Part shown: positions 52,493 through 55,745 of the stretch, in pieces
Position numbering within the stretch: the stretch's first letter is position 1
Layout of the letters: every line of letters starts with the position of its first letter
Assembly: GCA_030673895.1 (NCBI GenBank)
Contig: JAUTCR010000005.1
Location: forward strand, 124,001-188,000
Length of the DNA: 64,000 nucleotides
Reading direction: 5' to 3'
Origin: Verrucomicrobiota bacterium JB023
Lineage (GTDB): Bacteria; Verrucomicrobiota; Verrucomicrobiia; Verrucomicrobiales; Akkermansiaceae
The notes under the pieces: model-generated
Seen by the model: only the letters and a program-made list of their open reading frames with translations
What the model was told of the DNA's origin: nothing
The model's database searches: none
Translations under genes and position numbers: made by a program

Positions 52493-54865
52493 ATGAAGAC
52501 CTCACTGGCTTGGCTCAACGACCACATCGATCTCGACGGATTGTCCACGCAAGAACTCTCCGACCTTCTCACCTTTTCAGGCATCGAGGTCGAGGGCATC
52601 GAAGCCAAGGGCATTCCCTCCGAGCTGATCGTGGTCGCCCAGATTAAGGATGCGGTACAGCATCCCGATGCGGACAAGCTCAAGGTCTGCACCGTGGACG
52701 TCGGAGATGGCACCGACCGTCAGATTGTCTGTGGCGCCAAGAACTATCAGGTGGGCGACAAGGTGCCTTGTTCTCTGCCCGGAGCCGACCTCGGAGGAGG
52801 TTTCGTCATCAAGGTAGGCAAGCTGCGGGGCGTCGAATCGCAGGGCATGCTGTGCGCGGCCAGCGAGATTGGCCTCGTCGACCAGGAGGACGGCCTGCTC
52901 ATCTTACCCGCCGACTCGGTGGTCGGCACCAAGCTCGTCAATCTCTACCCGTCCGATACCATCTTCGAGCTCGAGGTGACCCCCAACCGTCCGGATTCAC
53001 TTTCGCATCGCGGCGTCGCTCGTGAGCTCTCCGTTCTCTCCAAGCGGGAGCTGCAAGACGGGCCTCCGGAGGCCGAACAAACGGCGGCCTCCCCGGTCGA
53101 ACTCAAGAGCCAAACCTGTCCCTACTACACCTGCCGTAGAATCAGCGGAGTGCGGGTGGGAGAATCTCCAGCCTGGCTGAAGGGTAAGCTGGAAGCGATC
53201 GGACTCCGCCCGATCAATAACATCGTCGATATTACCAATTACATTCTCCATGACCTCGGTCAGCCTCTCCACGCCTTCGATGCCGCCAAGGTGAACGGCC
53301 ACCTGGTGGTCAGGGATGCCTTAGAGGGAGAAGTCTTCAAAGCCCTCGATGAAAACGACTATTCCCTGCAGGCTGTCGATTGCGTAATCTCCGATGAAGC
53401 TGGCACCGCCCTCGCCCTCGCCGGTGTCATGGGAGGGCTGGACTCCGGAGTGACTGAGGGCACCACCGACATCATCCTCGAGTCCGCTTGGTTCACCCCT
53501 TCGGAGATTCGTCGCACCTCGCGTCGTCTCATCCTCACCTCCGACTCCTCCTATCGCTTTGAGCGCCAAGCAGACCCTTCCATGGTTCTCCCTGCCGCTG
53601 AACGAGCAACCAGCCTGATCCTGGAACTCGCCGGAGGAACTGCGGAAGACATTCTTATCGCGGGAGAAAAGCCTGCCGCAGCTCCCTCCATCAAGCTGGA
53701 CCTTGAGCAGCTTGCCCAAGTCTCCGCTAGCAGCATCAGCGAGGCCGAAGCCAAGGATTGCCTCACCCGTCTGGGCCTCGCCGAACAAGGCGACGGAACC
53801 TGGAGCATCCCCAGCAATCGTCCCGATCTGACTCGCCCTATCGACCTCATCGAAGAAGTGGTCAGAGTCATCGGCTTTGATCGGATACCCGCCTCCTTCA
53901 CCACCTACGCTGTTCCTAGTAGCGCCACCGACAAAACCTATGACACTGAGCTTGCTCTCAAGAAGCAACTCGCCACCCAAGGCTTCTACGAGTGCCAGAC
54001 TATCAAGCTCATCTCCGACAGCCAGGTCGCCGATTGCTTGACCTTGAAGCCTCTGCAGGATGGCGACTTGATTCGGGTGTCCCTGCCCTTGTCCGAAGAT
54101 CACGCCGTCCTCCGACCCTCGCTGGCACCTGGTCTCATTGCCTCGGCCGCCAATAATGCCCGCCATGGAGCGAAATCATTCCGCCTTTTTGAAAGCGGCA
54201 TGGCCTTCCGCAATCTGGGTGGTGGTAAGAAGAAGGACAGCGAATTCCCGGTCCTCGCCATTCTCCTCGCAGGCCAATCTTCGGCGCCGACATGGGCTGA
54301 GACCGCCCCCCGGACAGCGGACCTCTATGATCTCAAGGCAGTGCTGCAGGCCATTGCCCCTAACCTGCCTCTCGCTTTCAAACCGAAGGATCAGAATGGC
54401 TACCTCTTGGGTGCCAACATCCATCTTGGCGAGGCCAATGTCGGCACTTTTGGTCGCTTGGCCCCATCCCGGTGCCGTGCGCTCGACCTCCCCCTCGACA
54501 CCTACCTAGCCGAGCTGGATTTGGGCAAGGTGGGAAATCTTCTGCGAAAAGAAGGCCCCGTCAGCGACCTCCCACAATTTCCCGGTTCGTCCCGTGATGT
54601 GGCGATGGAATTGCCACTCGAGCTTCCTGCCGCCGATATCGAAGCGGCTCTGCAGAAATTCAAGAACCCCCTGCTTGTTAGCTATCGCTGCGTGAGTCTC
54701 TTCTCGGATCCGTCCGGGGAGAAGATCGCCGCAGATAAGAAATCGCTCGCCTACACCTTGCTCTACCGGTCGCCTGACCGGACTCTCAAGGCCAAACAAG
54801 TCGATGAAGCCCACCAGGCTCTCCTCGACCACCTGCAGAAGAGCCTTCCGGTATCCTTCCGCTGA
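52493..54865 (+). CDS. pheT: Phenylalanine-tRNA ligase beta subunit
   Basis: A 790-residue subunit that binds tRNA-Phe and edits misacylated products. The domain order is normal: MKTSLAWLNDHIDLDGLSTQ, a tRNA-binding OB fold (about 40-150; ICSGAKNY-type IVCGAKNYQVGDKVPCSLPG), B3/B4 editing region (about 205-380; NNIVDITNYILHDLGQPLHA), B5 (about 400-470), the catalytic-like core and a C-terminal anticodon-binding FDX domain (about 695-790; FPGSSRDVAMEL). pheS is not adjacent. The selenoprotein candidate gene is next on the same strand. Confidence 0.97.
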   Translation: MKTSLAWLNDHIDLDGLSTQELSDLLTFSGIEVEGIEAKGIPSELIVVAQIKDAVQHPDADKLKVCTVDVGDGTDRQIVCGAKNYQVGDKVPCSLPGADLGGGFVIKVGKLRGVESQGMLCAASEIGLVDQEDGLLILPADSVVGTKLVNLYPSDTIFELEVTPNRPDSLSHRGVARELSVLSKRELQDGPPEAEQTAASPVELKSQTCPYYTCRRISGVRVGESPAWLKGKLEAIGLRPINNIVDITNYILHDLGQPLHAFDAAKVNGHLVVRDALEGEVFKALDENDYSLQAVDCVISDEAGTALALAGVMGGLDSGVTEGTTDIILESAWFTPSEIRRTSRRLILTSDSSYRFERQADPSMVLPAAERATSLILELAGGTAEDILIAGEKPAAAPSIKLDLEQLAQVSASSISEAEAKDCLTRLGLAEQGDGTWSIPSNRPDLTRPIDLIEEVVRVIGFDRIPASFTTYAVPSSATDKTYDTELALKKQLATQGFYECQTIKLISDSQVADCLTLKPLQDGDLIRVSLPLSEDHAVLRPSLAPGLIASAANNARHGAKSFRLFESGMAFRNLGGGKKKDSEFPVLAILLAGQSSAPTWAETAPRTADLYDLKAVLQAIAPNLPLAFKPKDQNGYLLGANIHLGEANVGTFGRLAPSRCRALDLPLDTYLAELDLGKVGNLLRKEGPVSDLPQFPGSSRDVAMELPLELPAADIEAALQKFKNPLLVSYRCVSLFSDPSGEKIAADKKSLAYTLLYRSPDRTLKAKQVDEAHQALLDHLQKSLPVSFR

Positions 54866-55070: not shown

Positions 55071-55745
55071 ATGATCAATAAATTGATACCTACCTTACTG
55101 TTAGGCAGCTTATTGGGATTGTCGGCACGAACTTGGACTTCAGCCGACGGTTCAAAAACCTTCGACGCGGAGCTTGTTGGCTACGACGACGAAAAGAAGA
55201 CAATGACTCTCCTCATCGAGGGAGAAGAGCGCACCTTCGAGCTCAGTAACTTCTCGAAAGCCGACCGCCTCTGGGCGAAGAAAAACTCGGCCAAAAAGGA
55301 GGAGGACATCACCTTGCCTGGTATTCTGACCGAGGACGTCCTGACCAAATTGGAGGACGGCAAATTCGTCCCTGCCAAGATTGAAGGCGAGCCCAAGTAT
55401 TACCTCGTCTATTTTTCAGCTTCTTGGTGAGGCCCCTGCCGTCGTTCTGCTCCACAGTTGGTGGAGAAATTCAACAAGCACCTTGCCGACAGCGACACCG
55501 TGGCGATGGTTCACGCTTCTTACGACCGCGAAGATGACGCCGCACTTGTCTGGGCCCAGAAGGAAAAATTTCCATGGCTGACCATTCTACCCAGCAAGTT
55601 CAAAGAGAGCCAAATCGCTAATTTCAGTCGTTCTGACTACGTTCCCGAGTATCAAATCTATGATGCGGAAGGGAAGCCTCTGGCCGAGGAGGGCGAGGCC
55701 GCGATTGCCAAAGCAATCGAGCTCGCCGGCGAAGAGGACGAATAA
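55071..55745 (+). CDS. Probable selenoprotein: SHD1-thioredoxin-like protein with UGPC active site
   Basis: One reading frame of 225 codons with an internal TGA at 55428-55430. Residues 1-18 form a signal peptide; about 20-70 an SHD1-type domain (RTWTSADGSKTFDAELVGYD ... FELSNFSKADRLWAKK); about 85-224 a thioredoxin-like domain. The TGA is codon 120 and falls exactly where thioredoxins have the first active-site cysteine: YLVYFSASW-TGA-GPC, with C123 as partner. Coding-like sequence continues to 55745 (PQLVEKFNKHLADSD; VPEYQIYDAEGKPL, including the cis-proline region). A SECIS-like hairpin follows the TGA. I infer selenocysteine; a point mutation giving a 119-residue truncated protein is the alternative. 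ATG 55071 follows AAGG. Confidence 0.8.
55450..55466 (+). promoter_or_regulatory. Putative bacterial SECIS hairpin
   Basis: CTCCAC (55450-55455) pairs perfectly with GTGGAG (55461-55466) around loop AGTTG. The loop begins 25 nt after the TGA at 55428-55430 and has G as its second base. Bacterial SECIS elements have a short G-containing apical loop about 16-37 nt downstream of the UGA, so distance and shape fit. It lies inside the coding region. Confidence 0.65.

Follow-up and report, generated by a model that had tools for sequence, protein, structure and literature searches.

An SHD1-thioredoxin gene with an in-frame TGA at its active site

Between two ordinary neighbours, pheT upstream and a DUF455 protein gene downstream, the window (the whole 64,000-nucleotide stretch analysed here) contains a frame that begins with ATG at 55071 and ends with TAA at 55743-55745. 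Its sole internal stop is the TGA at 55428-55430 (codon 120), and mechanical gene calling ends the frame just ahead of this codon. The residues around codon 120 are those of a thioredoxin active site, YFSASW-U-GPCRRSAPQL (motif WUGPC), with the TGA at the position of the first active-site cysteine. We counted 104 codons downstream of the TGA, in agreement with the count of about 105 in the first-pass annotation of this DNA, and its description of a single frame interrupted once, at the first active-site Cys, was reproduced. The signal peptide that it had reported is clear by eye. The features of the gene are as follows.

55071..55745, forward strand: predicted selenoprotein gene of 224 residues with signal peptide, SHD1 and thioredoxin-like domain and a putative UGA-encoded selenocysteine
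55071..55127, forward strand: candidate signal peptide (MINKLIPTLLLGSLLGLSA), by inspection; low pLDDT at residues 1-15; hydrophobic N terminus conserved in homologues
55128..55289, forward strand: SHD1 (SLA1 homology domain 1)-like beta-barrel domain, residues 20-73; AlphaFold2 pLDDT ~95
55395..55649, forward strand: thioredoxin-like domain (Thioredoxin_8, tryparedoxin-like), residues 109-193
55428..55430, forward strand: TGA predicted to be read as selenocysteine, residue 120, first active-site position; TGA at this column in 85 distinct homologues, TGC/TGT in 19
55437..55439, forward strand: resolving cysteine, residue 123, of the UGPC motif; invariant in homologue alignments A3 and A4
55450..55466, forward strand: putative bacterial SECIS hairpin; 6 bp stem, loop AGUUG starting 25 nt after the UGA, MFE -7.8 kcal/mol

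The placement of the TGA, the open frame and the hairpin had together been taken to argue against random decay. The catalytic position upholds this argument. The frame and the hairpin alone are weak evidence: of the TGA codons in the window, 30 are preceded by at least 80 open codons and followed by at least 90, and a SECIS-like hairpin accompanies 12 of these 30 as well. As frame and hairpin do not go beyond chance, the case rests on the position at a catalytic residue and on homologues.

The TGA is conserved and the frame beyond it is under selection

A survey of 195 Akkermansiaceae genomes found relatives of the SHD1-thioredoxin in 185. At the codon-120 column, the 104 distinct genes had TGA (85) or TGC/TGT (19) and nothing else, a mixture that the first-pass annotation had anticipated. 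In the 85 homologues the frame stayed open for 92-118 codons past the TGA and closed with a normal stop, often itself a TGA. The median dN/dS downstream of the TGA was 0.14 over 116 comparable pairs, indicating purifying selection, and the relatives showed no general decay beyond the TGA. The TGA genes span eight genera. Among the matches listed from 388 genomes of the phylum, TGA at the active site was confined to homologues from Akkermansiaceae.

Mechanical gene calling stops at the in-frame TGA, just short of codon 120, as it would in a pseudogene: a Cys thioredoxin gene truncated by a nonsense mutation, with the remainder of its frame in only recent decay. Against such a pseudogene, which we reject as exceedingly improbable, stand the recurrence of this TGA at this codon in 85 distinct homologues from eight genera and the purifying selection downstream of it. 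A sequencing or assembly error, with TGC or TGG read as TGA, is conceivable in principle as a single-base error in a 77-contig assembly. The same TGA and a hairpin of the same spacing are found in a second gene of the source genome (contig C75) and in 83 genes of other genomes, and we reject an error as having practically no chance of being correct.

A single-sequence scan of the genome contigs for homologues returned no match. An alignment-based scan returned 80 loci, all with TGC/TGT at codon 120 because the peptide pattern of the scan contains Cys. One Cys homologue (L103, G149:C79:11375-11959) has an in-frame TAG 48 codons past the active site and is a probable pseudogene or error.

The hairpin downstream of the TGA is constrained as a bacterial SECIS element

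The hairpin CTCCAC/AGTTG/GTGGAG lies 19 nt past the TGA (stem 55450-55455 with 55461-55466, loop 55456-55460), where the first-pass annotation had located a 6 bp stem with a 5-nt G-containing loop. For comparison we used a bacterial SECIS model with a strict cut-off of -7.5 kcal/mol (PMC13188914). The window hairpin fits this model, with 6 bp, a 5-nt loop whose second and third bases are G and U, a spacing of 25 nt and -7.8 kcal/mol. The energy cut-off was passed by 40 of the 85 TGA genes and by two of the 19 Cys genes, and several TGA genes have one mismatched stem pair.

The hairpin not only fits the published model but also covaries. The 85 TGA genes were aligned in register (alignment A1), with stem columns 23-28 paired with 34-39. 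In this stem 90% of cells were paired, and double-sided changes were seen in five of the six pairs (32 cells); at columns 28/34, for example, 14 sequences have G-C in place of C-G. None of 500 shuffles came up to the real stem in percentage of cells paired, in count of double-changed cells or in covariation score. When the columns were slid, paired cells dropped to 34-57%. The same columns in the 19 Cys genes were 54% paired, with no double-sided change. RNAalifold over the whole 60-nt alignment gave no consensus structure, and the named hairpin was assessed by counting its pairs.

The loop was AGTTG or AGTTA in 75 of the TGA genes, AGTTT in eight and AGGTT in two. The loop Leu codon was TTA or TTG in 75/75 genes, compared with 13% of the other Leu codons in the same genes; these 75 genes are related and do not represent 75 independent events, though they span eight genera. 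The codon preceding the loop Leu position was CAG or GAG in 85/85, whereas CAA and GAA are in common use elsewhere. These codon choices are synonymous, so the constraint acts at the nucleic-acid level and not on the protein.

Selenocysteine machinery is present and tracks the TGA form

The first-pass annotation had pointed to selA, selB, selC (tRNA-Sec) and selD as genes to look for in the same genome, and all four are present in the source genome (G000; 4.03 Mb, 97.5% complete, 77 contigs). The tRNA-Sec gene scored 62.3 bits, over the Rfam cut-off, with anticodon TCA (ARAGORN). SelB was detected by SelB-wing_2 over its cut-off, SelA with E 2e-110 and SelD with E 5e-112. SelD has an in-frame UGA of its own at SSCAG-U-ASKL, which we take to be its catalytic Sec/Cys site, and the source genome therefore appears to use Sec elsewhere too. 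The SelD gene (L041, G000:C17:129582-130511) is itself a probable selenoprotein gene, with a hairpin ACGCAA-GTC-TTGCGT after the UGA.

A second SHD1-thioredoxin selenoprotein gene in the source genome (L044, C75:119907-120575) has the motif W-U-PPC, and its product is 45% identical to that of the window gene. A SECIS covariance model run over the source genome found only these two paralogues. Weaker matches (<20 bits) were set aside as chance after four had been inspected.

Across the 195 genomes, selA (TIGR00474) was matched in 70, in 69 of them over the cut-off. With TGA forms counted among the matches listed, 58 genomes had both selA and a TGA form, six the TGA form only, at most 12 selA only and 119 neither (Fisher p = 2e-30). 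Five of the six TGA genomes without detected selA are 70-86% complete, and the sixth, G059, is 96% complete.

Some selA and TGA loci are unusual in form. In G080 (C52:1970-3305), selA is split across two frames in a genome that retains the UGA thioredoxin. In G007 (C56:17988-19331), it lies within a 979-codon open frame, compared with ~465 codons elsewhere, which may be a fusion or merely a long open frame. The homologue L038 of G059 (contig C76) retains the TGA and has lost the resolving Cys (U-PSAVST, resembling compensating frameshifts); this could reflect decay following loss of Sec decoding or, alternatively, an assembly error.

The UGA could in principle be read through as another amino acid, either under a reassigned code or by near-cognate suppression with Cys or Trp. 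In some Sec-decoding systems, cysteine may enter at UGA when selenium is short. An alternative code was rejected, as UGA is a normal stop in the same genome, where pheT ends with TGA at 54863-54865, and in many homologues. The conservation of the SECIS loop in TGA genes only, and the way these genes track selA, also argue against another amino acid at codon 120, which we regard as very improbable. From these comparative data, the UGA at codon 120 is very probably read as selenocysteine.

The predicted protein joins an SHD1-like barrel to a tryparedoxin-like domain

The thioredoxin-like domain of the first-pass annotation was recovered by two Pfam models above their cut-offs, PF13905 (E 1.3e-8, 35.4 bits, cut-off 27) and PF00085 (E 5.7e-8). 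All of 40 homologues matched PF13905. AlphaFold2 predicted the 224-residue protein with a pLDDT of 90; its expected mass is roughly 25 kDa, or 22-23 kDa once mature. The thioredoxin domain was nearest to tryparedoxins and a nematode thioredoxin (profile E ~1e-31 to 1e-33; fold Z 13-15), and by these models the C-terminal domain is tryparedoxin-like. The window protein scored 26.3 bits against the model for classical thioredoxin TrxA (TIGR01068), for which the cut-off is 96.8.

The SHD1 domain, also named in the first-pass annotation, was upheld by fold and by homologues. In the window protein itself, Pfam SHD1 (PF03983) scored only 12.7 bits, below the cut-off of 23.7, and we therefore call the protein SHD1-like and not a Pfam SHD1 member by sequence. 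PF03983 exceeded its cut-off in two homologues, L134 (39.9 bits) and L142, and profile comparison (hhalign) linked the window protein to L134 with E 1e-18. When the N-terminal domain was predicted alone, its top PDB match was the yeast SHD1 2hbp (Foldseek rank 1, E 0.008; VIA Z 8.5 over 57/62 residues, runner-up Z 5.2). By its modelled structure the domain thus belongs to SHD1 in fold and in family.

The SHD1 domain is complete ahead of the UGA and is predicted with high confidence to fold alone. The UGA might thus act as a selenium-controlled switch, at which termination yields a 119-residue SHD1 product that is itself functional alongside the long product; in known Sec systems, termination competes with Sec insertion at UGA. 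SHD1-less paralogues have the same UGA and SECIS, and releasing an SHD1 product is therefore not the general function of the UGA. We consider a switch unlikely, though less remote than a pseudogene, a sequencing error or another amino acid at the UGA.

Selenocysteine insertion remains the preferred reading, and we infer from it the following course. tRNA-Sec and SelB would decode UGA 120 as selenocysteine, directed by the downstream hairpin with its conserved AGUUR loop. The predicted signal peptide would carry the protein out of the cytoplasm, and the protein would fold as an SHD1 beta-barrel followed by the tryparedoxin-like thioredoxin domain. Outside the cytoplasm, Sec120 and Cys123 (UGPC) may act as a selenenylsulfide/dithiol pair in the reduction or exchange of disulfides or peroxides, with Sec as the putative attacking residue. 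A DsbD-type membrane reductase would probably recharge this pair, and DsbD-type membrane reductase domains (a DsbD_TM gene) are found in the source genome. The SHD1 domain would probably serve in binding or tethering. Sequence and structural models point to an exported thiol-disulfide oxidoreductase as the probable role of the SHD1-thioredoxin.

Relationship to known thioredoxin-fold proteins

Among the closest described selenoproteins is a thiol-disulfide isomerase-like UxxC protein known from four Sargasso Sea sequences (PMC1088965) and assigned to PF13905 (PMC9312934; example sequence MAK15852.1). It shares with the window protein the Thioredoxin_8 domain and a UxxC motif with Sec first. 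The parts of these two sources consulted report neither SHD1 nor a Verrucomicrobiota host for it. Sec-containing thioredoxins (PF00085, UxxC) likewise have the thioredoxin fold with Sec first in the motif. Classical Trx, however, is short and cytoplasmic, whereas the window protein has a predicted signal peptide and SHD1 and scores low against TIGR01068. Tryparedoxin and nucleoredoxin-like thioredoxins, the nearest solved structures by profile and fold, are eukaryotic Cys proteins with neither selenium nor SHD1.

TlpA/ResA/StoA oxidoreductases are exported reductants with a thioredoxin fold, to which DsbD or CcdA usually supplies electrons. In contrast to the window protein, they have Cys active sites, and the window protein falls far under the cut-offs of their NCBIfam models. 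The thioredoxin-like bacterial selenoproteins TlpA-family UGC, HUIPC-motif, SaoT and GOS_C (PMC13188914) differ in motif or family, and the NCBIfam selenoprotein models stayed under cut-off here.

The first-pass annotation had supposed a fusion of SHD1 and a selenocysteine thioredoxin to be undescribed. In NCBIfam 20.0, including its selenoprotein models, none exceeded its curated cut-off for two SHD1-thioredoxin members, and no report of the family was found in the open-licence literature on selenoproteins with Verrucomicrobia, Akkermansiaceae or SHD1. Since UxxC thioredoxin-fold selenoproteins and the decoding mechanism were already known, it is the SHD1 architecture and the clade that are apparently new within that literature and NCBIfam 20.0. 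The family, which is well supported, adds more than 80 genes to the bacterial selenoproteome, with none reported for this group in the open-licence literature searched. Such genes are easily missed because mechanical gene calling cuts them at the active site.

Evolution of the Sec and Cys forms

A quick tree of 126 thioredoxin domains, built from few columns and with many open forks, required two Sec/Cys state changes, compared with a mean of 36 under shuffling. The nearest Cys relatives, L120 (5001-5693), L121 (5001-5693) and L122 (1702-2238), are nested within the Sec clade, and the AGTT loop is absent from all three. A change from Sec to Cys with later loss of the SECIS would account for its absence, and the three sequences appear to represent such a reversal. 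Cys forms were found in Akkermansia (including A. muciniphila and A. glycaniphila) and in the Haloferula and Luteolibacter relatives examined.

There is a good probability that these genes constitute an undescribed selenoprotein family, comprising the exported SHD1-thioredoxin together with paralogues that lack SHD1 and in part resemble lipoproteins, the genes often standing two or three in tandem. The family would have arisen about once in Akkermansiaceae and expanded there, with selenium serving extracytoplasmic thiol chemistry in several genera and Akkermansia having the cysteine version only. The benefit of selenium to an exported thioredoxin could be tested on naturally occurring Sec/Cys pairs, on tandem Sec copies and on the apparent reversal from Sec to Cys, of which there is at least one case.

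Tandem pairs of Sec-thioredoxin genes, each with its own UGA and SECIS, were seen at a number of loci, and G037 has a triple (L036, G037:C58:48882-50627). Further tandem loci are L020-L022, L024, L025, L028, L032, L034, L035, L047, L048, L051, L073-L075 and L077. Many of the second tandem copies have no SHD1 and look lipoprotein-like (e.g. LLASC, LVSC).
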